Shown piece after piece: positions 1 through 21,467 of a stretch of DNA of 21,467 nucleotides. The position numbers were made by a program, and so were the translations under genes. How positions within the stretch are numbered: the stretch's first letter is position 1; every line of letters starts with the position of its first letter. The notes beneath the pieces were generated by a model. That model was not told the DNA's origin. It made no database searches and saw nothing but the letters and a program-made list of their open reading frames with translations. The stretch spans positions 1 through 21,467 of the IMG/VR virus record IMGVR_UViG_3300027908_000085, one strand, 5' to 3'. The stretch comes from a virus.

Positions 1-327
1 GCTGGCGGAGTGGCCCGTCCGTACATGCAGCTCCAGGCGCTGATGATTCCGGGGGCTATCGCTACCAACGGTGCCTGGCTGCCCTTTGTCTGGCCCTACT
101 CGCACCTCAACAGGGTGCAGCTGATAGGGACCTTCGGATGGGATTACGTCCCGCCTGAGGTAACGCAGGCCTCACTGATGCTGTGCACGGACATCTACCT
201 GTCCAAGGACACTCCCTGGGGCATGGCCGGCACTAATGCGACGGGCCTTGTGCGCGTACAATCAAACCCATGGGTAGTAGAACTCCTGCGACCTTACGTG
301 AACGCCCGAAGGAAGTGGGGAGTCTGA
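1..327 (+). CDS. Head-tail connector (gp6-like), C-terminal part
   Basis: The frame is open from the first base, so the gene begins upstream; the GTG at base 10 is probably internal. The visible 108 codons carry the pattern that ends HK97 gp6-like connectors: a VPPEVTQASLMLCTDIYLSKD helix, then a Pro/Gly loop (TPWGMAGTN), the short strand GLVRVQSNPW and the closing LLRPY. In that family the protein forms the ring below the portal through which DNA enters the tail. Its place at the head end of a tail operon agrees. The stop overlaps the next start (TGATG). It could also be annotated only as an adaptor protein; the family call rests on motif resemblance. Confidence 0.72.
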   Translation, partial: AGGVARPYMQLQALMIPGAIATNGAWLPFVWPYSHLNRVQLIGTFGWDYVPPEVTQASLMLCTDIYLSKDTPWGMAGTNATGLVRVQSNPWVVELLRPYVNARRKWGV

Positions 328-509
328 TGGAGGACAACGACATCACCGTGGAGACTACTGCCGTAGTCGATGACCAGGTAGCGACTCAGGAGACAGGCCT
401 GTGTGACATCGCTCCTGCGCCGACTTCGCAGACAGATGCCCCGGCGCGCAAGCCGTTCGCACCCAACCCGACGTACCTAGCGATGGCCAAGAAGCTTCGC
501 GGGGCCTGA
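327..509 (+). CDS. Small acidic protein of unknown function (60 aa)
   Basis: The ATG at 327 overlaps the upstream TGA and sits behind a purine-rich GGAAGTGGGGAG stretch. That makes it a better start than the earlier in-frame ATG at 270, which lies inside the connector gene. The protein has an acidic N-terminal half (MEDNDITVE), a Pro/Ala-rich linker and a short basic tail (MAKKLRGA). No domain was recognised. The next gene begins one base after the stop, so it is probably translated together with its neighbours. Function unknown. Confidence 0.6.
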   Translation: MEDNDITVETTAVVDDQVATQETGLCDIAPAPTSQTDAPARKPFAPNPTYLAMAKKLRGA

Positions 510-6703: not shown

Positions 6704-6720
6704 AGGGAGGTTGAGTTGTG
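6704..6720 (+). promoter_or_regulatory. Strong ribosome binding site of the tape measure gene
   Basis: AGGGAGG at 6704-6710 lies seven bases before GTG 6718, which sets the start of the longest part of the tail assembly operon. Confidence 0.65.
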
Positions 6721-9700
6721 TCGCGCCTGATTGGCGAAGCTTATATCTCCCTGCTCGCAGACGCATCTCAGTTCAGGCCGGATGCGGACGCGAAGGTCAA
6801 GGCTGCCCTGTCAGGGCTGCGACCGTCAATCAAGCTCCAGGCTGACGCCACCGACGTTGACTCCAAGATCACGGCAATTGCCGCTGCCCTGAAGGGCCTG
6901 AGCGGCGACGTGAAGATCGACGGTGATAACCGTGGCCTTATCGAAAGCATCGGTGAGGCAGAAACAGCCGTCCTTGTCCTTATGGAACGGCTCGATGGCC
7001 TTCAGCTGGACGCGACGAACTCCAAGTTCCTGTCCAAGGTCTACGGGGCCAAGGCTGTAGTCGGGGACCTGGCGCACCAGCTTGAGAACATGGACGCCGA
7101 TGGCGACATGAACAGGATTCTCTCTAAGCTCTACGGAGTTGTATCCGTAGTTGAGGGTCTTGAAGTTGACCTGTCTCACCTCACGCCGGACATGAATCCC
7201 GCCAAGATGGAAGCCAAGCTCGGGATCATGGCCGGCAGCATCAAGGAGCTGAGCAGCGAGCTTGCGAACATGCGGGCCGACACGACTGACGCTGCGCTGC
7301 TTTCCAAGATCACAGCAGCTCAGGCCTACGTGCTGAAGCTGGCCAAGAGCATGGAAAACATGCCCATGTCAGCCGACACGCTGCCTCTTGAGTCTGACAT
7401 CTTCAAGGCCATCGCCCTGGTGGAGACCCTGAAGAAGACGATGAACATCCCAGTGCGGGCTTACGTCCTGCCTGGTGTGCCCGGCGCGTACTCTACTGCG
7501 GGAACCGGCAGCTACAATGCGGGTGAAGCACAGTACCTGGACGAGCTGACGACCAAGACTCTGGCTGACCTGACGGCTACCGACCGGCTTACCAGGTCTA
7601 CCGAGCAGTTCCAGGGTGCCATGGCTCAGGCGGCTACTGACCTTCAGCACGAGCGCCAGTACATGGACGACCTGGTAAACAGCACGATGAACGCGGCTAT
7701 GGCCACGGATCACCTGACTAACACCCAGGATGATTTCGAGCAGACCATGGCCCGGATGAAGTACAGCGGCGGTGTTGGTCCTCAGCCAGTACCGCTTGCC
7801 CTTCAGAAGGCTGCCTCTCTCAGTACCACCGGTGTGGACGACCTGGACCAGAAGCTGCGTGTTCTTAACACAGACCTGGATGGCTTCGGCACAAAGGGAC
7901 TGTTCGCTGCATCCGTGCTGGAGAAGTTCGCGGCGCAGAACTCCATGATCATTGCCTCCGGTGCCACAGGCTGGTGGAGTTTCCTGAATGCCAAGATCGC
8001 CACGTTCGGTGGTATCTTCGGCAGCTTCATGCCGGGCCTGCTTTCCTCTGTGCACGTGTGGCACCTGCTCGGTGATGCCATCTTCGAGTTCGCGGCAGCC
8101 TGGGCACCTGCTCTTATCGCAGTGGGCGCGTTCGCCGCCTATGCCTTCCCCGTTGGCGAGAAGATCTACGGCCAGTGGAAGAACATCAACGTCATCCTGG
8201 ACGGCGTTGGCGGCAAGCTGACTGACCTTGGCCCGCAGTTCGACAACATCGAGCGGGCTATTGAGCCGAGTATCCTGATTGCCTTCGGTGAGTGGATGCA
8301 GATCATCACCGGCAACTCGGCAAACCTCGGTACCGCGCTGGCTAAGGTCGGCGTCGTTGTCGATAACTGGGGTGCTGACCTGGTTAACTGGTCACAAAAG
8401 GGCGCGAAGGCCATCCATGACATCATCTCCTCCGGGTCGGGAGACTTCGAAGCCATCGGACGTGGCTTCCAGGCACTAGGTGCTATCTTCGGTGCATTCT
8501 TCAAGGCAATGCCCGGCTACGTGCACCTGCTGCTTGCTATTGGTGACGGGTTCCTTCAGGCTACCGCCGCTATCATGCAGTCCCCGGTCGGCAACTTCTT
8601 CCTCAGGGTCGGCCTTGCCATTCACGGGTTCATTATCTACGCAGGCCTTGCTGTTACCGCTGTCTACGCACTGGGCCGTGCGATCAGCGCTGCTGCCATC
8701 GGCACCTATCTCACCAAGATGGGCATGGCCTCAGAAGTAACAGGAGACGCACTAGCCTCTGCGCAGGGTAAGTTCAACAAGTTCGGCACCGCTATCGGCG
8801 GCATGGTCGGCGGCCTCGCTGCGTGGGGTGCCAACACGCTCAAGTACGGGCAGAGCGTCAACCAGCTGGGTAACGACGCGGCAAAGGCCGGAGAGTCTAC
8901 CAAGGTAGCGGCTATCGGCAGCAAGCTGTTCGGGGATGCCCTTTCGATTGTGCCCCTGGGCGGATTCGGACTAGCCGCAATTGCCGCAGCCGCAGCGGTC
9001 GGCGGCATCCTGTACTTTGCCCTGAAGCACACCACTGACGCAGCGGTGCAGTTCAACCTTCAGATGCAGAAGCTAGTGGGCGGCTCGAACGTCAACAACA
9101 TCGGGCAGAACCTGACCCTTGCCATTGCTCAGACCCAGAAGCAAATGAGCCTGTCCCTTAGCTCATTGACCAGTGCGCAGACGGGGTACAACAAGGCTGT
9201 TGCCAGCACGCCCACCAATGTCTCTTCGGCGCAGGCTGACTCCATCAAGAACATACTGAAGCAGCAGGAGCAGCTGAATGCCGCGCAGAGCCAGGGGCAG
9301 CGTTCGCAGGAGAAGGCGAACTCGACCGGCGCGTACGCGCAGTACAGCGCGCAGCTGAACACTCTGATCAACGAGAACGACCAGTACGCTACGCGCATGG
9401 GCCAGCTGACGAAGGTATTCGGCTCGGCCGGCGCTGCTCAGCAGGCGCTTAACGTCATCGGTGTGTCGGCCGGCACGATCGCAACTGAGGGTGCGGCAGC
9501 GTACGGCAACCAGTACGAGAAGCTGATGGCCCTGGCCAAGGGCTACGGCTACATGAACCAGACGGCCGGCGCAGCCGGGGCTCAGCTGAGTGCCATCAAC
9601 ATCTCCACTGGCTCGGTCACCAAGAACCTTCAGACCCTGACGAGTGCTGAGTCCCAGTGGGTTGCGATGGGCACGAGCGCAGACAGCTCATTCACGCAGT

Positions 9701-12378
9701 TCGAGCAGGGCCTGGGCGCTATCAAGAGCGCAATGGGCGGCGCGGCCAACAGCGCGGCTAACATCCAGGTGCACTTCGGTCAGCTGAGCGAAAAGATTCC
9801 CGCGTACGGCGCGACAATGAACGGCCTGTCTGCGTCTTCTCTCGCAGTCCGGTCGGCATTCGACCAGCAGCTTGCGTCGGGCGTCACCCTGTTCGGTAAC
9901 CTCCAGACCCTGAACGTGGCATCTGGTAGCACGGCTGCATCACAGAAGCAGCTTGCTATCGGTGGCAAGGCCATCATTGCTTCCATGCTTCCGTTCGCGG
10001 CTGGCAGTAAGGAGGCCACCTCAGAGCTGTCCAGGCTCGCGCAGCTCATGGGCGGGCCGGCCACGGATAACTTCCAGGTCCTAGCCAAGTGGGTCGGTAA
10101 CACCACGGGCGCGGCAGTCAAGCTGAACAGTGCTCAGGCTAACCTTGTTATCTCTTCTACCAACCTGACCACGGCTGAGAAGAACCTGGGTAATGTAATA
10201 GACACCAGCATTACACAGGCACAGAGTGCGGCGCTGGCATCTACTGCTAACCTCACCGGGGCTACCACTAACCTGGATAAGGCCTTCCAGTCGTCTCACA
10301 AGACGATCTCCGGCCCGGTTGTCGCAGCCGCAGGGGAGTACATGGCTTCCCTGAAGAACATGAACCTGTCCACTGGGCAGGCGAAGCAATACCTCAACGC
10401 GTTCCTGAAGCAGATGGGCCTCACTCCTGGCCAGATTGCGGAAGTTGACGCGCAGATGGGCGACTCGATTTCCCAGTGGAACAAGTACGACTCCGCCGTG
10501 CAGCACAACACCACAGCTGCCAAGGCTAACGCGACTTACACCAAGCTCAATGCGGCGGCGTTCGCGAGCCTGGAAGGCACCCTGCCGGGCAGCACATCCC
10601 AGCTGAACAACGTCTGGGCAGCCCTGGTCAAGCAGGACTCCGCCATGGTGAACAGCGGCAAGGACACGAAGAACGCCAAGTCCGAGTTCGTGAACTTCGC
10701 TAACCAGGGCCTGGGAATCAGCATTTCCAAGGCCAACGACCTGTGGGCTGCCTTCAGCAAGCAGAACCTGGACGAACTGGGTAACAAGGCGGCCAGCACC
10801 AAGGGCCAGTTCATCAACATGGCCATGAACGGCCTGCACCTCACCACTGAGCAGGCGCAGACCCTGTGGGGCGAGTTCGCCATGCAGAACCTGGACGAGA
10901 TGGTCACCAAGGGTGACAAGATGAAGGACTCGTTCGAGAAGCTTGCCATGGGCGGACTGGGCCTTACCACGGCGCAGGCTAACACCCTGTGGAACACCCT
11001 GAAGCAGCAGTACCTTGACACCCTGGCTGGGAAGGCCGGAGAGACACGCTCAGCGTTCGAGAAGACTGCCTCCCAGCTAGGAGACACCAAGGCCGCTGCG
11101 GACAAGCTGTGGGCCTCTCTGCACAAGCTGGCGGCAGGCTCTCCGTACAACACCACCACCAACGACACGATCTCCGGCAGCGGCGGCGTGGTCGCCAAGG
11201 CGAACATCCCCGGTCAGCCTGCCCTGTCTGCACGCCTGAACTTCTCCGCTGCGGCGCACGGCCTTGCGTCGGGTGGTGTGGTTCCCGGTGGTGTCCACGG
11301 TCAGGACAGCGTGCCTGCCATGCTGGCTCCCGGTGAGCTGGTGGTTCCCTCCTCGCACGCCCCGGCGTTCGCGTCCATGGCCAAGGCGGCAGGTATTCCG
11401 GGCATGGCGGCCGGCGGTTTCGCCGGGGCTGCGGCATCGCAGGCTGGTACTATCAACCAGGTCAATCCCTGGACGACGACACAGAGTTCGCAGTTCGCGA
11501 CAGAGGCTACGGCGGCCTTCGCCAGTGCCGTGCTCAAGAGCGCGCAGAATAGCCTGAACGTCGCTGGCGGAGCTTACAGCGGCCCGTCTAAGTTCGGCGG
11601 CGGGTTCGAGTCCCTGGCGGCCCTTGTAGCGTATGCCAGGTACTTCATGCAGAACGGCCTGAACGCTGCCGCTGCCGCTGGTATGGCAGCTACCATCTCC
11701 GGTGAGCAGGACTCGGCCGGCCCTGAGTCACGAGGCTCTGGCGGATGGGGACTTATCGGCTGGACCGGCAACACCGTGGGACTTCCTCCCGGCTACACCG
11801 GGCCAACCGGGAACGTGGCCTATGACCTTTCCCAGCAGCTGAAGGGCGTCATCGGGTACATGAACGCCCGAGGCGGTCGCGGCCCGCTGAACGCGGCCGG
11901 CAACCCGGTGGCTGCCGGTGACGTGTGGTCCAGGTACGAGGCTCCTGCTTCGGCCGGGTCCGACACGCGCCCTGCTCTCGCCAACGAGATCTACGCTGCG
12001 CTGATGGGCGGGTCTACCCAGGCCGGCGTCAAGGCCGCCGCAGCACAGGCGCAGGTTGCTGGCAAGCTCAACCAGACCAAGCCGCACAGCTCGGGCGGCA
12101 TGGTCAGTGAGCCTGTCTACGGTGTCGGGGCTTACTCCGGGACGCCCTACTCCTTCGCGGAGAACGGTCAGCCAGAGTACGTCGGCCCGATCTCCGGTGG
12201 CGGCGGGGGCGGCAACAGCATGATGCAGCCGATGACGAACGTCCAGGGACAGACTGTGAACCAGCAGCTCGCGATGCTTATCAAGCTCTGGCAGCAGTTC
12301 CCGCAGGCGATCGGCACGGCAATGCAGACTTCCGCAGGCAGCGGCGTGCGGCACGGATATTACGGGGCTCAGGGGTAA
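6718..12378 (+). CDS. Tape measure protein with tail lysozyme domain (1886 aa)
   Basis: It sets tail length; at about 0.15 nm per residue, 1886 residues suggest a tail near 280 nm. Residues 38-242 are seven 30-residue repeats (DATNSKFLSKVYGAKAVVGD type) seen at the N-terminus of actinophage tape measures. Hydrophobic segments lie near 434-485, 627-665 and 740-768 and may insert in the host membrane. Residues 1289-1476 hold a 41-residue tandem repeat. The tape-measure signatures LASGGVVPGG...SVPAMLAPGELVVPSSH (about 1515-1548) and SGGMVSEPVYGVG...YSFAENGQPEYV frame a Phage_lysozyme2-like domain (about 1630-1755: YFMQNGLNAAAAAGMAATIS, Glu1663, PES, GGWGLIGWTG). That domain probably cuts peptidoglycan during DNA entry. 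Confidence 0.93.
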   Translation: MSRLIGEAYISLLADASQFRPDADAKVKAALSGLRPSIKLQADATDVDSKITAIAAALKGLSGDVKIDGDNRGLIESIGEAETAVLVLMERLDGLQLDATNSKFLSKVYGAKAVVGDLAHQLENMDADGDMNRILSKLYGVVSVVEGLEVDLSHLTPDMNPAKMEAKLGIMAGSIKELSSELANMRADTTDAALLSKITAAQAYVLKLAKSMENMPMSADTLPLESDIFKAIALVETLKKTMNIPVRAYVLPGVPGAYSTAGTGSYNAGEAQYLDELTTKTLADLTATDRLTRSTEQFQGAMAQAATDLQHERQYMDDLVNSTMNAAMATDHLTNTQDDFEQTMARMKYSGGVGPQPVPLALQKAASLSTTGVDDLDQKLRVLNTDLDGFGTKGLFAASVLEKFAAQNSMIIASGATGWWSFLNAKIATFGGIFGSFMPGLLSSVHVWHLLGDAIFEFAAAWAPALIAVGAFAAYAFPVGEKIYGQWKNINVILDGVGGKLTDLGPQFDNIERAIEPSILIAFGEWMQIITGNSANLGTALAKVGVVVDNWGADLVNWSQKGAKAIHDIISSGSGDFEAIGRGFQALGAIFGAFFKAMPGYVHLLLAIGDGFLQATAAIMQSPVGNFFLRVGLAIHGFIIYAGLAVTAVYALGRAISAAAIGTYLTKMGMASEVTGDALASAQGKFNKFGTAIGGMVGGLAAWGANTLKYGQSVNQLGNDAAKAGESTKVAAIGSKLFGDALSIVPLGGFGLAAIAAAAAVGGILYFALKHTTDAAVQFNLQMQKLVGGSNVNNIGQNLTLAIAQTQKQMSLSLSSLTSAQTGYNKAVASTPTNVSSAQADSIKNILKQQEQLNAAQSQGQRSQEKANSTGAYAQYSAQLNTLINENDQYATRMGQLTKVFGSAGAAQQALNVIGVSAGTIATEGAAAYGNQYEKLMALAKGYGYMNQTAGAAGAQLSAINISTGSVTKNLQTLTSAESQWVAMGTSADSSFTQFEQGLGAIKSAMGGAANSAANIQVHFGQLSEKIPAYGATMNGLSASSLAVRSAFDQQLASGVTLFGNLQTLNVASGSTAASQKQLAIGGKAIIASMLPFAAGSKEATSELSRLAQLMGGPATDNFQVLAKWVGNTTGAAVKLNSAQANLVISSTNLTTAEKNLGNVIDTSITQAQSAALASTANLTGATTNLDKAFQSSHKTISGPVVAAAGEYMASLKNMNLSTGQAKQYLNAFLKQMGLTPGQIAEVDAQMGDSISQWNKYDSAVQHNTTAAKANATYTKLNAAAFASLEGTLPGSTSQLNNVWAALVKQDSAMVNSGKDTKNAKSEFVNFANQGLGISISKANDLWAAFSKQNLDELGNKAASTKGQFINMAMNGLHLTTEQAQTLWGEFAMQNLDEMVTKGDKMKDSFEKLAMGGLGLTTAQANTLWNTLKQQYLDTLAGKAGETRSAFEKTASQLGDTKAAADKLWASLHKLAAGSPYNTTTNDTISGSGGVVAKANIPGQPALSARLNFSAAAHGLASGGVVPGGVHGQDSVPAMLAPGELVVPSSHAPAFASMAKAAGIPGMAAGGFAGAAASQAGTINQVNPWTTTQSSQFATEATAAFASAVLKSAQNSLNVAGGAYSGPSKFGGGFESLAALVAYARYFMQNGLNAAAAAGMAATISGEQDSAGPESRGSGGWGLIGWTGNTVGLPPGYTGPTGNVAYDLSQQLKGVIGYMNARGGRGPLNAAGNPVAAGDVWSRYEAPASAGSDTRPALANEIYAALMGGSTQAGVKAAAAQAQVAGKLNQTKPHSSGGMVSEPVYGVGAYSGTPYSFAENGQPEYVGPISGGGGGGNSMMQPMTNVQGQTVNQQLAMLIKLWQQFPQAIGTAMQTSAGSGVRHGYYGAQG
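6829..7443 (+). repeat. N-terminal 30-residue repeats in the tape measure gene
   Basis: Residues 38-242 divide into seven units of 28-30 residues. Most start with an ADxT/DGD-like turn, continue with a helix carrying a Leu/Ile/Val pattern and end in LxxL/ENM (units ending at 67, 97, 125, 155, 185, 215, 242). Unit identity is low at DNA level, so this is an old protein repeat and not a DNA duplication. Confidence 0.6.
10582..11145 (+). repeat. 41-residue tandem repeats in the tape measure gene
   Basis: Units lie at residues 1289-1331, 1332-1372, 1373-1413, 1414-1453 and a partial one from 1454. Each carries LGxTxxQANxLWxxFxxQNLDEL followed by GKxxxxKxxFxxxAxxG. The best-matched units are the second and third (LWAAFSKQNLDEL / LWGEFAMQNLDEM). 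The units look like paired helices. Confidence 0.75.
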
Positions 12379-12417: not shown

Positions 12418-12431
12418 GAGGAGGCATAGTG
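12418..12431 (+). promoter_or_regulatory. Ribosome binding site of the giant minor tail gene
   Basis: GAGGAGG (12418-12424) stands four bases before GTG 12429, in the 50-bp gap after the tape measure stop. The gap holds no other clear signal. Confidence 0.6.
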
Positions 12432-15400
12432 GCATCGTATTCAGGTCCGGGGAACTTCCCGTACTGGATGACAATTGTAAACACCGCTGCCTCTGCCAAC
12501 CCTCAGGCCCAGTCTGAGAACATCCCGGTTACCGTGGGGGTGGAGTACCAGTTCGACGTTGTGTGCTCATATGCAACCACGTACACCAGCGGGGTGCAGG
12601 TCTACATCGCCTGGTACACGGCTAACGGCATAGAGATCTCCTCTAGCGCAGCCGTGGTGCAGTCCAACATGACCGGTGGCGTCCTTTACGAGGTTAACTC
12701 CGCATACCAGACCGCTCCGGCCACGGCATCATACGCGGTCGTTATCATCCAGTGCCTGGGCACGCCGGCTGAAACCAATCCGCTCCTGGTCTACAACGCG
12801 ACGGTGACGGACCAGAACGGCAACATCGTCAACGTGAACTACGCGTTCACCTATACGACCTGGCCCTGGTCCCCACTCAACGGCACCCCCACCCTTGCCT
12901 GGAACTACAACCCGTTGCTGCTCGGAGACTCTGACTCCCTGGTTATCGACAACGTGATCGAGCTGATGGGCGGCGCTCAGGGTGTGCAGTGCCTGATCCC
13001 TGAACTTCAGGACTACAACGGCCAGGGGCCAACGTTCCGAATCCTGGCACCGCCCTCACTGAACTCCGCTGCCTTCGGCTATGAGTCGAGCTATGACCTG
13101 AATGCTCCTCAGCCTACGCAGGATGTCGTTGCCTCCATGCTCCTGGACGGTGAGCGACCGTTCGGTGATCGTGCATCAAACCGCACTATGAGCCTGCCCA
13201 TAGTGATCTTCGGTACACAAGCAGGCGGAATGAACCAGGTGCTCAAGGCGCGCGAGTACCTGATGTCGGTCATTGACCAGCAGACCTACACAATCAAGTG
13301 GACCCCGGCTGACACCGGCCTGCCTATGCTGTTCGATGCCTTCAGGGCGCTCCCCAGCTCACCCCTGTACGGCTTCAACTACTCCGCTGGCGGTAGTGCC
13401 ACGGGCCAGGCTATCGGCCGACCTAACTACCCCATCGCCATGATCACGCTGTCTATCCAGGCGTTGCCTTACGGGCGCTCGGACATTGACGGCGTACAGA
13501 ATCTGTCGTTCCAGAGTCCTATCTCAGGCGGTATCAACCCGCAGACCGTTCAGCCCTCCACACTGGACACTTTCGGCACGGTACTCAGCGGTGCGCCTAT
13601 CATCAGCAATCCTACCGTGACGGAAATGGGCTTTGCCAACCCGACCAGCACGTCCACCTGGAATATCGCCACCGGGCATGCCATTGCTGCCGGTAACACC
13701 AGCATGGTTGAAGTACAGGCTGCGGGCGGCACGATCACGAGCATTACTGACACCCAGGGCAACGTGTACAAGCAGGTTGCAGCGCAGTCTACAGGCGGAC
13801 TGTGCATTCAGTTCATCTGGATGGCTAGCGTAGTCAACCCGCTTACCGCTGCGGACCACGTGACGATTACCACCAGCGGCTCCGGTAACTTCTCGTCCGT
13901 ATGGAGTTCTATCTCCGGTGCCTGGACTCCTACTGTGCTTTTCCAGGGCGCGGAAACTGCTTCCACATTCAATCAGACGCTCAACGTTGGTCAGTACGAC
14001 CTGGTGATATACATGGGTGCTGGACTGGGCAGCTCAGGTAACCCGCCATTCACGAACTACCAGGGCAACTTCGGAAACGGCTACAACAACACCACGTCCT
14101 GGTCCAGTCAGGCACTAGCCCAGACATCAATGGCTGTGGTGGCAACTTCAATGCCGAACCCGTCTGCGGTAATCGTGATCGCGCTCGTGCCGGCGAACCA
14201 GTACTGGAACTCAGACACAACTACACCACCGCCTACCTTCATCGGGCACAGTGCTCACTACTCGCCGCCGACGCCGTTCAAGGCACCTTACCCTGCCGCC
14301 ACCTATACCCAGACGGTTCTCAACGGCCCGGTAACCGCGCCGGTAAATATCGTAGGCTGCCCTGTGCTGTCTATGTACTTTGGCCAGGCCTATGACACGC
14401 AGTGGCCAAAGGACCCTAAGTTCGTCTCGAACGTTACTTTCCAGTGGACCCTGACCGATGACCTAGGCCGCAAGCTTTCCTTCTCCAAGAAGCAGAATGC
14501 CGCTCCGTACGGCACCAGTCCGTCCGCGCCGAAGTGGGTGCTGGTCAACTCCCCTATCCCGCAGGGCAAGGCGTTCAACTACAACTCCGTCACGTCGTAC
14601 AGCGTGCGTATATCCAACTGGAATTCCTCAGGACACACCGGCTACATCCGCATGCACTGCTGGCTGAACTACGTCGTGGCTAACCCGCAGACTATTCAGA
14701 ACGGCATATCTCCTCGCGGTACGGTCTACCAGATGCTAGCCCTGCCTGGCAGCGCGCGGGCTCCCGTCTCTGTGCAGTGCCAGCTCCCGGCCGCGCAGAA
14801 TCAGACCAAGGAAATCACTACGCCCAGCACGGGCACGTGGATCGTTCCGCCAGGTGTGTACTCAGTTCAGGCAGAGGCCTGGGCAGGTGGTGGCGCGGGT
14901 GCCGCGTCCAACCTCTCGCGAGTGCTGTTCGGTGCCGGCGGTGGCGGTGGTGAGTACGCGCAGGAGCCTGCTCTCAGTGTGCTGCCTGGCCAGCAGGTCC
15001 CGTGGTCCATCGGCGGCGGCGGTACGCCCGGCCAGCTGGTAAACACCGTCGTGCAGTTCAACAAGTCCGGTACCGGGCACTGGACCTGCCCTGCCAACGT
15101 GACCAACGTCCTGGTAGAAGCCTGGGGCGGAGGCGGTGCGGGAGGTGCCGGTGCCGGCGGCGGTGGCGGCGGTGAGTACGCCTACTCGCACGTGCCTGTT
15201 ACCCCTGGCACGACTTACGTCGTATGCACCGGACCTGGCGGCAAGGCCGACACCGGAACTACCACTGCCACGATCGCGTCACGAGAAGGATCGATCTCCT
15301 GGTTCGGTCCACCGGGCACCACCAGTGCCGCGCCGGCCTACGTGCAGGCGGCGGGTGGCCTTACCTCACTCACAGGCAGCTCCAGTGGTGGTGTCGGCGG

Positions 15401-18400
15401 CAGCTTTGGCACGCCTCAGCAGGCTGTCAGCTTCGCTCGCACGGCGTACGCTATCCCGTCCGGTAACGTCACGTCCGCAGCCATGGGCGCAACGACTTCC
15501 TCGGTCCTGCTGTTCGGCGGCGACACGGCGCTCGTAGTGGTAACTGTCTCCGGTGCTGCCACAATCACAGTCTCAGACACCGCTGGCAACAAGTACACGC
15601 AGATCGCCACGTCTAACAACACAGGCGCTTTCACGTACGTGTTCGCCTGCTTTGACGCCAAGACCGTTACCGGGCGCGGGGCTGTTACTGTCAAGCAGAG
15701 CGTTAGCCAGCACATGATGGCCCTGTTCTACGACGTGCCGGGAGTTGTCGGCGTGGACGTGGCTGCGGTAGCTAACAGCGGTACCAGCTCAACGCCTTCC
15801 ATCACCTCGAATGCCACGCACTATCCGGCCGGGGCCGTACTGGCGATCTTCACTAACACCGGGGCTAACGCCCACACCACGCCAGCGGGGTGGAAGTACG
15901 GCGGGGCTAGCTTCAACGGCAACGTCAGCCCGGTGCTGTACTGCGATGTGTTCGAGCAGACGGCAGCTAACGGTGTTACCTCTGGTCTCACCTGCGCGCC
16001 TACTTACACGAGCAGTGAAACGTGGAGTGGCATCGCGCTCTCCCTGATTGCCGTTAACCGCTGGGCAGGCGGACGCGGTGGCACGTCTCCCGGTCCCTCC
16101 GGTGGCGGTGGCGGCGGCGCGGGCGGCGCGGACGCGGTTGGCGGTGCCGGAGGCAACTCCCAGGCGTACGTGGCGAACGTCGGCAACTGGCAGCAGGGCG
16201 GCGCAGGCGGCACGGGCCAGGGTCAGGGCGGTGCAGGCGGTGCAGGTGCTAACACACCTGGCTTCCCCGGCGTTGGAGTTCAGCCCGGTGGCGGTGGCGG
16301 CGGCGGATACCAGACTGCCCCCATCTTCAACCCGGCTAACCCGTCTAAGGCACTTCCAGGGACAGTGCAGACGAACTACCTCGGCGCTGACGGCGGCACA
16401 GGCCTGGTGCAGCTAACGTACGCAGTGGGCAGCGGCTCACCTGTGAACGGAGGTAACACTACCTTCGGGTCAACGGCCCTGACAGGCACGGTCGTAACTG
16501 CCCACGGCGGCAACTCAGCGGCGAACAACAGCGCGGCAGGCGCAACCGGTGGCACAGGCTCGTCTAACACCATTCACAACGCTGGCGGGCCTGGCGGCAT
16601 CCTGGTCAACAGCACCCTGGGCTCGTACATGGGCAGCCCGACGCAGGGTTACTTCACTACCCTGACTTCAGGCTCGTGGGATGCCAACTCGGTGATCAGC
16701 GGTGCGTCCTCGGCTTCCGTGAGCCAGGGCGTTGCCGTGGTGCTGATCGAGTCTCAGACGGAAGTCCTTGACCTTGTAGTGACGGACTCTGCCGGGAACC
16801 TTTACCAGCTGGCGGGCCTTGACGTAGCCGCGCCGGGTGCCTGGACGGTATACGCGTACGTTGCGGACATTGAGTACCCCATCACTACGTCCACTACCTT
16901 GTCGGTGGCGTCTGCCACGTCACAGAACTACGCGCTGCTGTGGTACGGTTCCCCGTGGCTGGCGACAGGTGTTACCTCAGGTAACAGTGCGTCAAACCAC
17001 GGCACCAGCTCCTCGTTCACCGGGCAGTTCGGCGTAGCAGACACCAACTCGCAGCAGCTTGAGCTTGGTATTGTCCTGTGCGACGGCAGCCAGACAGTAT
17101 CCGGGCTAACTCAGACCAAGACCTGGTTCAACGCCTCGTCTACCCCGTCCATCTCGGTCAGTACAGCCACTCTCAGCGCGTACATCATGCAGAACCAGGG
17201 CGGCGGTACCGGAGCGGCGAACAGCGGAGACATCTTCAGCGGTTCCCTAACCGGGTCGGCAAACTGGGCCGTCCTGTGCATCCCCCTGGTGCTGATGAAC
17301 CAGCAGGCTTCGCTGGTACGTATCGACTGGCGCACCGGTACTACGCCCGGTGCGCAGACCACCTGGGCCTCGGAAGCTGCGATCTCCGCTAACGGCATGA
17401 TCGTGGTAGCCGGCATGGCGGGGTCCGGCGCGTCTGTTACAGCTGGCCCTTCAGCTATGGCGGATGCAGCGGGCAATGTCTACACCTTCAGGAACACCAC
17501 AGTTCAGCCCGTGAGCGGCGGAGTAGCCTGGATAGCTACCGCTCCGGTTACCAATGCACTGGCTGCCGGCACCACCGGAACGATCAACTGGGGCCATGCC
17601 TCAGCTGCGCCCAACTACACAGTTGACGTGCTGTGGGCACCTCTTGCCCTAGGCGTAGACGTGTCAGGGGCACTGGGCGTGACCGGTAACGGCTCTGCTG
17701 TCAGCGCGGCCTACACGCCTGCGTCCCCTAACGACATGGTGATCGCGTTCAGCACGTCAGTAGTTACCGCGCAGTCCTGGGGCGGCTGGGCGCAGGCGTA
17801 CAACTGGATTGACGCGATTGACCAGAGCTACCTGAAGAACCAGCTCTACGCAGCTCAGGCCATCGACCTGGCCGCGCCGTCGTTCACGTCCGCTATCCTC
17901 AGTGCTCCCTGGGCTACGATCATGCTGGGCCTCACCATGCCTCCGGTAGGTACTGGTGGCGGTGCAGGCGGTGGCGCGAACGGTCCTGGCTACCCAGGAG
18001 TGTGGCAGTTCGGTGCGCCGGGCTACACGGGCGGCGGCAAGGGCGGGGCTGGAGCGCCTCCTGGGATCGCTGGACCTGGTGGAGGTGCCTCGTACCCCGG
18101 TGGTGGCGGTGGCGGCTGCTACGGCACGTCTGCGGCCCCGCAGGAAGGCGGCCAGGGTGCTCCGGGTGCTCTCCGCCTGACATGGACCCCGCCGCTTCAG
18201 GCCTTCAACACCCTGATCGTGCACAGCCTGAACTCCAACACGGACCCGAACGTCAACCCGATCACGCCTATCCCTATCACAGACGTGCCGAACAACACGG
18301 AGTATGCAGTTCCCAGCCTCAACGGGATACTGCCTGCCACGTTCAACAGCACGTACACCGTCATGCTCTCGGCCAACTACTGGAACAGTGCCACGGTCGG

Positions 18401-18929
18401 CTCCGCACGGCAGATCACTGTCACTATCAACCAGTACGAGTTCCCAGGCGGTCCTAAGTACTCCGTGCAGGCCAGTCGTGCCGTCACGCCGGCTACGGAT
18501 GCCACCAACGGGCTGATCGACATGGGCGAGGTGACCCTTCCAGTGAAGGACTACCTCAAGTACAACGACCAGTCGTACTTCACGATCTCGATCAACGACA
18601 CCGACACCAGTGACCGGTTCATGGACGTGCTCATGCTGGATACGCTCGGCCAGACCGTGGAAGTCAACATTGACCCCGGCCAGCCTGGCTACGGGCAGTA
18701 CGTGAACTTCTTCTTTGACGAGGCAACGTCCGATAAGGACCTGGGATTCGTCGGCGGGTCCATGCAGGACCGCCAGCACCAGATCTCTGTCCTGGACTAC
18801 ACGCAGGTCAGCGGCGGGGCGATTTACATCGGCTCGGGTGACAACCTGTTCATGGTGTACTCGCCTTCCGGTGCGCCTAACCTCTCGATTCAGTACGCGC
18901 CACGCTGGTACCTGGACCGGAGCGTGTGA
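12429..18929 (+). CDS. Giant minor tail protein: Dit-like backbone with nested glycine-rich adhesin domains (2166 aa)
   Basis: This is a tail-tip protein that probably anchors the baseplate and recognises the host. Residues 1-140 look like a jelly-roll carbohydrate-binding domain. Residues about 165-375 match the Dit-like start of actinophage minor tail proteins (LLDGERPFGDRASNRTMSLP, YTIKWTPADTGLPMLFDAFR). A beta module fills 385-592, and the backbone resumes to about 787 (SARAPVSVQCQLPA). A block of about 1130 residues follows, containing glycine-rich domains and three further beta modules. The backbone returns at 1923 (LQAFNTLIVHS ... ISINDTDTSDRFMDVLMLDT ... YAPRWYLDRSV), an end known from shorter homologs. 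No obvious catalytic residues were seen. The stop overlaps the next ATG (TGATG). Confidence 0.85.
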   Translation: MASYSGPGNFPYWMTIVNTAASANPQAQSENIPVTVGVEYQFDVVCSYATTYTSGVQVYIAWYTANGIEISSSAAVVQSNMTGGVLYEVNSAYQTAPATASYAVVIIQCLGTPAETNPLLVYNATVTDQNGNIVNVNYAFTYTTWPWSPLNGTPTLAWNYNPLLLGDSDSLVIDNVIELMGGAQGVQCLIPELQDYNGQGPTFRILAPPSLNSAAFGYESSYDLNAPQPTQDVVASMLLDGERPFGDRASNRTMSLPIVIFGTQAGGMNQVLKAREYLMSVIDQQTYTIKWTPADTGLPMLFDAFRALPSSPLYGFNYSAGGSATGQAIGRPNYPIAMITLSIQALPYGRSDIDGVQNLSFQSPISGGINPQTVQPSTLDTFGTVLSGAPIISNPTVTEMGFANPTSTSTWNIATGHAIAAGNTSMVEVQAAGGTITSITDTQGNVYKQVAAQSTGGLCIQFIWMASVVNPLTAADHVTITTSGSGNFSSVWSSISGAWTPTVLFQGAETASTFNQTLNVGQYDLVIYMGAGLGSSGNPPFTNYQGNFGNGYNNTTSWSSQALAQTSMAVVATSMPNPSAVIVIALVPANQYWNSDTTTPPPTFIGHSAHYSPPTPFKAPYPAATYTQTVLNGPVTAPVNIVGCPVLSMYFGQAYDTQWPKDPKFVSNVTFQWTLTDDLGRKLSFSKKQNAAPYGTSPSAPKWVLVNSPIPQGKAFNYNSVTSYSVRISNWNSSGHTGYIRMHCWLNYVVANPQTIQNGISPRGTVYQMLALPGSARAPVSVQCQLPAAQNQTKEITTPSTGTWIVPPGVYSVQAEAWAGGGAGAASNLSRVLFGAGGGGGEYAQEPALSVLPGQQVPWSIGGGGTPGQLVNTVVQFNKSGTGHWTCPANVTNVLVEAWGGGGAGGAGAGGGGGGEYAYSHVPVTPGTTYVVCTGPGGKADTGTTTATIASREGSISWFGPPGTTSAAPAYVQAAGGLTSLTGSSSGGVGGSFGTPQQAVSFARTAYAIPSGNVTSAAMGATTSSVLLFGGDTALVVVTVSGAATITVSDTAGNKYTQIATSNNTGAFTYVFACFDAKTVTGRGAVTVKQSVSQHMMALFYDVPGVVGVDVAAVANSGTSSTPSITSNATHYPAGAVLAIFTNTGANAHTTPAGWKYGGASFNGNVSPVLYCDVFEQTAANGVTSGLTCAPTYTSSETWSGIALSLIAVNRWAGGRGGTSPGPSGGGGGGAGGADAVGGAGGNSQAYVANVGNWQQGGAGGTGQGQGGAGGAGANTPGFPGVGVQPGGGGGGGYQTAPIFNPANPSKALPGTVQTNYLGADGGTGLVQLTYAVGSGSPVNGGNTTFGSTALTGTVVTAHGGNSAANNSAAGATGGTGSSNTIHNAGGPGGILVNSTLGSYMGSPTQGYFTTLTSGSWDANSVISGASSASVSQGVAVVLIESQTEVLDLVVTDSAGNLYQLAGLDVAAPGAWTVYAYVADIEYPITTSTTLSVASATSQNYALLWYGSPWLATGVTSGNSASNHGTSSSFTGQFGVADTNSQQLELGIVLCDGSQTVSGLTQTKTWFNASSTPSISVSTATLSAYIMQNQGGGTGAANSGDIFSGSLTGSANWAVLCIPLVLMNQQASLVRIDWRTGTTPGAQTTWASEAAISANGMIVVAGMAGSGASVTAGPSAMADAAGNVYTFRNTTVQPVSGGVAWIATAPVTNALAAGTTGTINWGHASAAPNYTVDVLWAPLALGVDVSGALGVTGNGSAVSAAYTPASPNDMVIAFSTSVVTAQSWGGWAQAYNWIDAIDQSYLKNQLYAAQAIDLAAPSFTSAILSAPWATIMLGLTMPPVGTGGGAGGGANGPGYPGVWQFGAPGYTGGGKGGAGAPPGIAGPGGGASYPGGGGGGCYGTSAAPQEGGQGAPGALRLTWTPPLQAFNTLIVHSLNSNTDPNVNPITPIPITDVPNNTEYAVPSLNGILPATFNSTYTVMLSANYWNSATVGSARQITVTINQYEFPGGPKYSVQASRAVTPATDATNGLIDMGEVTLPVKDYLKYNDQSYFTISINDTDTSDRFMDVLMLDTLGQTVEVNIDPGQPGYGQYVNFFFDEATSDKDLGFVGGSMQDRQHQISVLDYTQVSGGAIYIGSGDNLFMVYSPSGAPNLSIQYAPRWYLDRSV
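13580..17948 (+). repeat. Four copies of an about 215-residue beta module
   Basis: Copies lie at residues about 385-592, 995-1210, 1407-1624 and 1625-1840. Each has a D-[TSA]-x-G-N-x-Y motif about 46-56 residues in (DTQGNVY at 441, DTAGNKY at 1050, DSAGNLY at 1453, DAAGNVY at 1679), a following aromatic strand (FTYVFACF, WTVYAYVAD) and later a D-V-S/A-rich strand. This resembles DSAGNTY-type beta-sandwich domains of bacterial surface proteins. DNA identity between copies is low. Confidence 0.68.
14817..18194 (+). other. Nested glycine-rich domains inside the giant minor tail protein
   Basis: Domain 1 starts at residue 797 (TGTWIVPPGVYSVQAEAW), is broken at 871, resumes at about 1332-1406 (NGGNTTFGST ... 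GGTGSSNTIHNAGG) and again at 1841-1922, ending GAPGALRLTW. Domain 2 starts at 872 (GTGHWTCPANVTNVLVEAWG), is broken by a beta module at 995-1210 and ends GADGGTGLVQLTY at about 1331. Both carry long Gly runs and a GGGGGEYA motif. Boundaries are read by eye. Confidence 0.62.
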
Positions 18930-21467
18930 TGGCTGCCTCCGTACCTCCAAATCCGAATCTTGGTAAGTCACAGGCACTTAACCAGGCACAGGCAACAGTT
19001 ACGCGACTGGCAACTCTTGTTCCCAGCCTGACTACTGAACTGTCCCCGGTAACCGTTTACCAGCCGGGCGTTAGCGGCGGCGTAGGCAACGAGCTGACCG
19101 CGCGGTATGTAGGCGTGAACGTGGACACCTCGTATGGCGTATGGGTAGCGCCAGATGTTAACGGCGACGGGTCCACGTGGTATGCCACGGTCGAGTGCTT
19201 CGGTGCCGGCGGCGGCGGAGGCGGCGGGAACTCCAGCCAGGGCGGTGGCGGCGGTGGCGGCGGTGAGTACGCCTGCGAGTTCCAGTACCCGATAGAGCCT
19301 GGTAAGTCGTACGTGTACGTCTGCGGCCTGCCCGGCAGCGGCGGGTTCAACAACAGCGTGCAGACTCTTCCCGGTGCCGCAGGTACCAGCGGAGGTACGA
19401 CGGCATTCGACCTAGCTGGCATTGGTCTTGCCGGCGGGGTTGTGGCTAACGGCGGCGGTGGCGCGGACCAGACATCGGTAGGCATTGGCGGTGACGGCGG
19501 CACAGGATCTGCCAATTCCGTTCACTTCGACGGCGGAGCTGGCGGCACTAACGTCTCGGGTAACGGGTCAGACAACCCGTTGTCCCTTGCCCAGACACCA
19601 GGCATGTTCGTCGGCAACACCCTGAGTACCGGCATAATCCTTGACTGGTACATCATGAATGACTCGAACTTTTCCAGTGCTACCAGGAACGACGCAACAG
19701 GGCGCGGTCATACAGGCACCTGGGCCAACATCGGCAAGGGTAACTTCGAGACCGGTGAGGCTAACCCCGCTGCTCCTGCCCAGGTTCCCGCGTACACCTC
19801 TGTCGCAGGAACCTACGGCCCGAACCAGACCACGGCCACCTGGACATCAAAATTCAATGCAGGCAGCTTCAACTCCCAGGCGGCAAGGTTTGCCTGCGGA
19901 GGTCTTACGTCAGTTAACGGCTCAAAGTTCACCATATCAGGCTGGGTACAGGCTCCGCAGGGTGAGTGGGGCAACACGCCGACTGGCACCTTTGCTGTAG
20001 TAGCTGCGAACAACGTGAACTACGTGTTCAGCACCTTCAAGGGCTTTGCCCTGTACTTCTTCAACAATGCCGGTACCTGGCAGCTGTACATATCCGTGGG
20101 CAACGGGACCACGAGGTACACGGTGAACAGTGCGGCCATGCCGCCGACGCCAGGTACCTGGTACTACGTCGTGGCAACGTACAACGCAGGCACGCTCAGC
20201 CTCTACGTTAACGGCACGCTGGCTTCCAGTACCGTGACCACGGGCTACACTTCCGTACCAGCCGGAGCTTACGCCACGGTCATGGGCATGGACCCTTCGG
20301 CCAACGCGAACTGGTTCTTCGGGGCCGTGTCAAACTTCTGGTTCGCTAATGACTGCCTGACATCCACGGGCGTCAACCAGGCGTTCGGGCTCACCGCCGC
20401 AACAGGCGGCGCTGGCGGCGGAGCATCAGGCGGCCCTAGTGCAGCAGGCGGTACCGGAGCGTCCGCAGGAGGTGCTACAGGAGGTAACGGCGGTACCCCG
20501 GCCACTCAGCCGGCCAACCTTGCCGCTGTCACCACGGCAGCCGGCGGCGGATTCGCAGGGGCTAACGGCGGAGCTAGCAACGTCACTCCAGGATCGCCAG
20601 CTGGCGGGATTTTCGGGAACGGCGGAGGCGGCTCCGGGGACATGGTGACCAACCCTGGCCTGACTGTGCTCACCATCCCGTTCTCCGCTGCGGTGACCTA
20701 CACAGGCACGGACTCTTCGAGCAGTCCCGGCACGCCCTACAACGTCAACCAGCAGAACAACCCGAACAGCGGCGTGAACTCCGTGCTGTACTCCGGGGGC
20801 CTTCCGTCTGATACTGCCTCGGGCAGCAAGAACTCCATGCTGCTACTGCCAGTGGGACTTGCCTCACAGCTGGGCCCCAGCTACACCATCGTGAACGTAT
20901 TCCTCACGTTCACTAACGCGTTCCCTCAGAACACCGTGGAGTCCATCCTTGAGGTAGGCTTCTCAGCTGACACGACCTTGCCGCAGACATACAACGGCGC
21001 GTCCCTGGTCAACTACGTCGGGGCAATTCCTATCCCGGTCGGCGCAGGTACCATCACCTACGACATGTCGCAGACCGAGATCGTGACGAACCTACAGAGC
21101 GGTGGCGCGACCGCGCTTATCCTGGGACCTGGCGGCACGCCTACGTTCGATGCGTACAACGCGCAGGCCGGCTCAGAGTTCTACTGCTCCATCTACGGGC
21201 CTGGCGCGGCTGATCAGTTCGGCAACCCCGAGTACCCGTACCTGACGATCGTGTTCCAGGAGACCATGACGACGCAGCAGGGCTCGTACGGGTCAAGCGG
21301 CGGCATCCTGATCACCAACGTCAGCAACAGCAACACCCCGGTTGCCACGATCGAGCCTTTCGCTACCACTGACGCAAACGGCAACCAGTTCGCGGCAGGT
21401 TTTACCGGGCCTATCACCGCGTTCGATCCCACCGAGGCGACTCCCGGCGACTTCGTGCCGGAGGCAT
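18929..21467 (+). CDS. Minor tail protein with glycine-rich and LamG-like domains (5' complete, 3' cut by window)
   Basis: The ATG overlaps the previous stop (TGATG). The frame is open for 846 codons to the window end with no stop, so the protein is longer. A short helical start is followed by YQPGVSGGVGNEL and a glycine-rich domain (about 95-235: VECFGAGGGG, GGGGGEYACEFQYP, GGTGSANSVHFDGGAGG). A concanavalin/LamG-like domain follows at about 235-486 (NDATGRGHTGTW, FTISGWVQAP, GTWYYVVATYNAGTLSLYVN, FFGAVSNFWF). The glycine-rich part then resumes (ATGGAGGGASGG ... GGIFGNGGGG). Later residues form beta sequence ending GGILITNVSNSNTPVATIEP and FTGPITAFDP, as in other actinophage minor tail proteins. 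It is a likely receptor-binding or sugar-binding tip component. Confidence 0.85.
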   Translation, partial: MAASVPPNPNLGKSQALNQAQATVTRLATLVPSLTTELSPVTVYQPGVSGGVGNELTARYVGVNVDTSYGVWVAPDVNGDGSTWYATVECFGAGGGGGGGNSSQGGGGGGGGEYACEFQYPIEPGKSYVYVCGLPGSGGFNNSVQTLPGAAGTSGGTTAFDLAGIGLAGGVVANGGGGADQTSVGIGGDGGTGSANSVHFDGGAGGTNVSGNGSDNPLSLAQTPGMFVGNTLSTGIILDWYIMNDSNFSSATRNDATGRGHTGTWANIGKGNFETGEANPAAPAQVPAYTSVAGTYGPNQTTATWTSKFNAGSFNSQAARFACGGLTSVNGSKFTISGWVQAPQGEWGNTPTGTFAVVAANNVNYVFSTFKGFALYFFNNAGTWQLYISVGNGTTRYTVNSAAMPPTPGTWYYVVATYNAGTLSLYVNGTLASSTVTTGYTSVPAGAYATVMGMDPSANANWFFGAVSNFWFANDCLTSTGVNQAFGLTAATGGAGGGASGGPSAAGGTGASAGGATGGNGGTPATQPANLAAVTTAAGGGFAGANGGASNVTPGSPAGGIFGNGGGGSGDMVTNPGLTVLTIPFSAAVTYTGTDSSSSPGTPYNVNQQNNPNSGVNSVLYSGGLPSDTASGSKNSMLLLPVGLASQLGPSYTIVNVFLTFTNAFPQNTVESILEVGFSADTTLPQTYNGASLVNYVGAIPIPVGAGTITYDMSQTEIVTNLQSGGATALILGPGGTPTFDAYNAQAGSEFYCSIYGPGAADQFGNPEYPYLTIVFQETMTTQQGSYGSSGGILITNVSNSNTPVATIEPFATTDANGNQFAAGFTGPITAFDPTEATPGDFVPEA
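19928..20386 (+). other. LamG / concanavalin A-like lectin domain core
   Basis: Residues 334-486 of the last gene show the LamG-type strand order: FTISGWVQ, GFALYFFNNAGTWQLYI, PGTWYYVVATYNAGTLSLYV, NGTLAS, then the G-M-D strand and FFGAVSNFWFAN. Such domains bind glycans in many phage and bacterial proteins. The domain may begin near residue 250 (DATGRGHTG). Confidence 0.75.

Follow-up and report, generated by a model that had tools for sequence, protein, structure and literature searches.

In the window, by which we mean the whole 21,467-nucleotide stretch of viral DNA analysed here (IMG/VR record IMGVR_UViG_3300027908_000085, positions 1 to 21,467), a giant tail protein carries a glycine-rich domain that seems to break off shortly after its start, to be followed by a second domain of the same type, and to resume only once the second has ended. 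This locus thus raises the question of whether one glycine-rich domain is truly lodged within another, and what such an arrangement might contribute to the phage tail.

The giant tail protein and its surroundings

The gene (12429..18929; this and all features below are on the plus strand) starts with GTG, encodes 2166 amino acids and is located directly 3' of a tape-measure-like gene (6718-12378). Within the 1886-aa product of the latter, about 42 residues are weakly similar to mycobacteriophage tape measures (E 0.08), which were the sole cultured relatives detectable. Together with the high GC content of the sequence, this weak similarity suggests that the host may be an actinobacterium.

The N-terminus of the giant tail protein looks Dit-like, as judged by comparing the family alignment A13 of the block at residues 169-352 (12933..13484) with PHROG and Pfam. 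PHROG 33, 'distal tail protein Dit', was matched by 7 of the 18 members (best E 4.5e-4) and Pfam Sipho_tail by 6 of the 18 (best E 1.3e-3), the row of the window itself matching neither. Searches with this block returned nothing credible from the PDB and, by tblastn against cultured phages, chance-level matches only (E 2 or worse). Residues 385-598 (13581..14222) form a beta module whose broad type is that of the modules inserted further downstream and are weakly similar to the one within the inner glycine-rich domain (E 6e-5 in a four-sequence comparison); three of the four beta modules of the window protein are remotely alike. All four (13581-14222, 15414-16052 and two in 16614-17942) are about 210 residues long, and most carry a TDSAGN-Y-like motif; none matched a Pfam family. 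The protein ends in a conserved domain (residues 1926-2166, 18204..18926) which served as an anchor for collecting the family and had no convincing match among the PHROGs.

One glycine-rich domain within another

A single open frame holds all motifs on which the first-pass annotation had based its proposal of nested domains, and their order is as it had been described: WIVPPGV (804-810), GGGGGEYA (837-844), WTCPANV (885-891), a second GGGGGEYA (911-918), GGTGLVQLTY (1322-1331), NGGNTTFG (1340-1347) and GALRLTW (1913-1919). The starts it had assigned to the two domains, 797 and 872, precede the respective W motifs by a few residues rather than coinciding with them, and are close to the starts computed here, 790 and 873.

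To align these domains with uninterrupted ones, a spliced profile was used that was built from ten uninterrupted glycine-rich domains (alignment A6), contained no rows from outer domains and permitted jumps at a flat cost. It recovered the inner domain in two pieces, residues 873-995 (15045..15413, profile columns 1-122) and 1209-1334 (16053..16430), and, after masking of the inner domain, the outer domain in three: residues 790-869 (14796..15035, columns 1-75), 1335-1395 (16431..16613, columns 76-136; also identified by a profile of the middle of compact relatives, see below) and 1839-1924 (17943..18200). Both domains are interrupted by beta modules, as had been proposed, the inner one by a 213-aa module at residues 996-1208 (15414..16052) and the outer one by two modules at residues 1396-1838 (16614..17942).

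The outer domain scored 75.3 with its segments in their natural order, compared to at most 25.9 in any permuted order. This score was never reached by 600 shuffled controls of three schemes, and the 200 shuffles preserving the positions of glycine scored -23 or lower. When aligned singly and without constraint on their order, the three outer pieces fell on columns 6-61, 84-134 and 175-227, collinear and without overlap, at scores of 75, 38 and 23, compared to shuffled maxima of 19, 18 and 19; the third piece is thus the weakest. The jump positions were steady across most gap and jump costs, with small extra pieces appearing at lower jump costs. A second profile, derived from four single domains of other genes, picked the outer domain as its best match in the unmasked window protein, plus one stray piece of 10 residues. 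The Pfam family Gly_rich_2 (PF21722) also matched the window protein, at 35.8 bits against a curated cut-off of 24.3, in two stretches, one of which (798-869, profile 2-72) coincides with the start of the outer domain. Matches above the cut-off were likewise found in most of the relatives scanned; however, the Gly_rich_2 model describes one uninterrupted domain, whereas in the window protein both the inner and the outer domain are interrupted. As far as the sequence is concerned, one glycine-rich domain sits whole within another in this tail protein.

Occupied, empty and exchanged slots among relatives

A family of uncultured phage contigs was gathered by means of the N-terminal and C-terminal blocks. 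The central part of the protein yielded no match when used as query, and a profile search of genome contigs with the C-terminal family alignment retrieved no relative. Similarly, tblastn against cultured phages with pieces of P0001, P0002, a single glycine-rich domain or the L001 downstream gene as queries gave no match, although the low-complexity filter may hide glycine-rich relatives.

The family comprises eight large-type members (the window, L001, L005, L007, L029, L032, L034 and L035), in all of which the nested domain follows profile column 73-84, and twelve compact members, which are more distant orthologs devoid of beta modules. In the latter the nest follows column 154-172, as determined by the spliced method for 11 of the 12 and by alignment only for L025. 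The outer head and middle are contiguous in the compact orthologs, which represent an empty site for the inner domain of the window, while their own inner domain resides in a different loop. Across the unbroken head-middle junction the compact members read ...VIPYSVGAGGTPGASPANGGNTVFGP..., whereas the window reads ...VPWSIGGGGTPGQ / GSPVNGGNTTFGS..., so that two motifs which are contiguous in the compact members are here split by a whole inner domain. A profile of the compact outer middle scored 46-66 on the outer middle and only 9-16 on the inner middle of all eight large members, which argues against a pairing of the first head with the first tail. Subfamily profiles did not discriminate the outer from the inner tail. 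In a phylogenetic tree the nest positions form separate groups, with a slot-B clade (100/100) and a slot-C' clade (95/95). L027, which harbors a single un-nested glycine-rich domain between the same flanking blocks, is found on a long branch, and the rooting of the tree is uncertain.

The slot within the inner domain (column 122-124) is empty in L001, L005, L007, L029 and L034, all of which lack the 213-aa module that occupies it in the window. In L001, L005, L007 and L034 the inner domain is uninterrupted, and in L001 and L034 it constitutes one contiguous Gly_rich_2 match covering 1-225 of 226 profile positions. In L032 and L035 the same slot is filled by a module of about 152 residues, which in L035 resembles CBM_4_9 at an E value of 1.7e-4, below the Pfam cut-off. 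The two modules of the outer domain are kept in all eight large-type members, and L029 possesses a LamG module (E 7e-23) in a different, earlier slot of its outer domain. Indel-prone columns did not hold significantly more slots than expected (4/7, p 0.58), and their placement at loop tips is therefore to be taken qualitatively.

Structural models

AlphaFold2 modeling of the 446-aa region from the compact relative L009, with 12 rows, gave a pLDDT of 81.8 and a pTM of 0.54. The inner domain of this model (156-372) matched the Pam3 fibre (7ypx; Z 22.7, rmsd 2.0 Å, 188 residues aligned) and the Bxb1 tail tip (Z 17.9). For the glycine-rich, TNF-like domains of ALK and LTK, no more than about 130 aligned residues covered the range 1..435 of the model (Z about 8-10, and about 10 for ALK). 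In our reading, the outer pieces that flank the inner domain jointly form one TNF-like glycine-rich domain of the ALK type. The contact between these pieces is inferred, given the pTM of 0.54 and structure matches that are reported by their first and last residues. The model of window residues 791-1932, built from five rows, was of low confidence (pLDDT 35.7) and was set aside. In L009 the nest occupies another loop than in the window, whose own nest position is accordingly supported by sequence, the exact geometry of its domains being tentative.

The first-pass annotation had compared the glycine-rich runs to the polyglycine-II sandwich of the S16 adhesin gp38. Support was obtained for this kind of scaffold in general; however, the nearest solved folds are Pam3 gp24, Bxb1 gp33 and the TNF-like glycine-rich domain of ALK/LTK.

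Glycine-rich domains in the neighboring gene and elsewhere

The next tail gene (18926..21466) remains open at the contig end, and its product has a glycine-rich domain (about 65-207 and 501-587) split by a LamG module (328-482). LamG interrupts the glycine-rich domain in both the window (18926-21466) and the homolog in L001 (L001:15901-20232), and the latter contains an additional nested glycine-rich domain, complete and itself interrupted, which the window is without. Since the spliced method yielded scores of only 35.2 for P0002 of the window and 36.8 for the outer ORF2 domain of L001, these nestings rest on pairwise alignment and on reading of the sequence. A further protein of 2002 amino acids (L003:2023-8031) has three glycine-rich domains, one with an insert of about 315 residues in its first loop; another appears, from a reading of the sequence, to be lodged within a LamG-like domain. 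Mycobacterium phage Piglet gp31 (L036:10026-11480) appears, by eye, to have two divergent glycine-rich domains in tandem and un-nested (spliced score only -4.5).

Discussion

The nesting put forward by the first-pass annotation is corroborated by the spliced profile, by the contiguous outer head and middle of the orthologs, by pairs of relatives with and without an insert, and by the confident model of a compact relative. We consider it probable that the giant tail protein is a baseplate or tail-tip protein resembling 'evolved Dits', whose glycine-rich domains act as recursive scaffolds for the display of modules. The central TNF-like glycine-rich domain, in which polyglycine hairpins form the loops of a beta sandwich, would serve as the acceptor, one of its loops being occupied by a second complete glycine-rich domain, and both would hold further beta modules in other loops. 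The pieces of the window protein would fold together as proposed for the compact relative, with the inserts pointing outwards from the ends of the polyglycine loops. The inserts may bind glycans of the host surface, and swapping of an insert would then change host recognition. That the scaffold displays binding domains is plausible by analogy to the LamG and CBM_4_9-like inserts found in the same kind of loop, the inserts of the window being of an unnamed beta-module type.

Glycine-rich sequence is low in information, and cultured phages seem to have un-nested domains arranged in tandem, Piglet gp31 being an example recognized by eye. The central region might hence be read linearly: the inner domain alone would be complete, and the glycine-rich stretches to either side would be unrelated or degenerate remnants, each folding locally. 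We regard this as improbable, as in 8 of 8 members the flanks taken together fill a single profile, collinear and non-overlapping, 12 orthologs show no break between head and middle, and ALK aligns over both sides in the compact model. A swapped arrangement, in which the first tail belongs to the first head and the last pieces belong to the second head, could draw on profile scores that depend little on which head is joined to which remainder, on tails that the subfamily profiles do not discriminate, and on a four-sequence profile that assigned L034 in this way. It is, however, just as improbable in light of the contiguous inner domain in L001, L005, L007 and L034, the clear subfamily signature of the contiguous outer head and middle in the compact orthologs, and the contiguous inner fold of the compact model (Z 22.7). 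Fusion of tail genes through an assembly or binning artefact might be suspected, all sequences being metagenomic contigs, but the architecture recurs on many separate contigs with frames intact and flanking domains conserved, which renders such an artefact extremely unlikely.

A more substantial doubt concerns the role of the inserts, which might be spacers or assembly parts rather than receptor-binding modules even if the nesting is real. Those of the window match no named binding family, and every large-type member retains both outer modules, in contrast to the variability of receptor binders. We nevertheless think this possible rather than probable, because in relatives these domains carry LamG and CBM_4_9-like inserts in their loops, and close relatives differ in whether the inner slot is empty, filled or swapped.

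Display of inserted modules is known from the evolved Dit proteins of siphophages, which have a length of about 500 residues (PMC9437275) and bear CBMs in the loops of a galectin domain (PMC7291167, PMC9437275) and display them (PMC7291167). The window gene is similarly positioned after the tape measure, several of its relatives are weakly Dit- or Sipho_tail-like, and carbohydrate-binding-like modules occur in domain loops. In contrast to evolved Dits, a TNF-like glycine-rich domain acts as the acceptor and has another copy of itself among its inserts; the protein is also about four times as long. The fold of the compact relative's inner domain is shared with Pam3 gp24 and Bxb1 gp33 (9d93). 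The glycine-rich domain of the Pam3 gp24 fibre (7ypx/7yfw) has short variable loop ends, and its loops are described as serving in receptor recognition (PMC9608196); unlike gp24 as described there, the proteins studied here have whole-domain inserts and nesting. The extracellular TNF-like glycine-rich (TG) domain of ALK/LTK, which matched the fold over both sides of the outer domain, belongs to animal receptors and not to a phage scaffold. In the S16 and PP01 gp38 adhesins, glycine-rich hairpins of a polyglycine-II (PGII) sandwich carry variable loops for receptor recognition (PMC12892980). The presentation of variable parts by such hairpins is alike, a likeness drawn by description; gp38 did not appear among the listed fold matches, which says nothing against it. 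However, gp38 pairs its PGII domain with a beta-helix domain and has short loops in place of inserted domains. Evolved Dits and adhesins rich in glycine were retrieved by a literature search, whereas no glycine-rich scaffold nested within itself was found, most subscription journals being outside its coverage.

Both the insertion of whole domains into tail proteins, as in evolved Dits, and the binding of receptors by glycine-rich domains are already known. Here the two are combined, in a scaffold nested within itself at two different loops and with empty, filled and swapped slots occurring naturally among close relatives. It is possible, going beyond the single protein, that the TNF-like domain rich in glycine serves as a recursive acceptor whose loops tolerate whole-domain inserts, including copies of itself, and that binding modules are gained, lost or exchanged at a few fixed slots in uncultured phages; this could provide a general route to altered host range that leaves the tail backbone unchanged. 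The slot variants constitute a directly testable system for the change of phage recognition modules, and from the slot positions a map can be drawn of sites where insertions were tolerated during evolution. Our findings suggest a scaffold that would allow host-recognition parts to be exchanged in nature, the same loops holding different, often sugar-binding-like modules from one relative to another.
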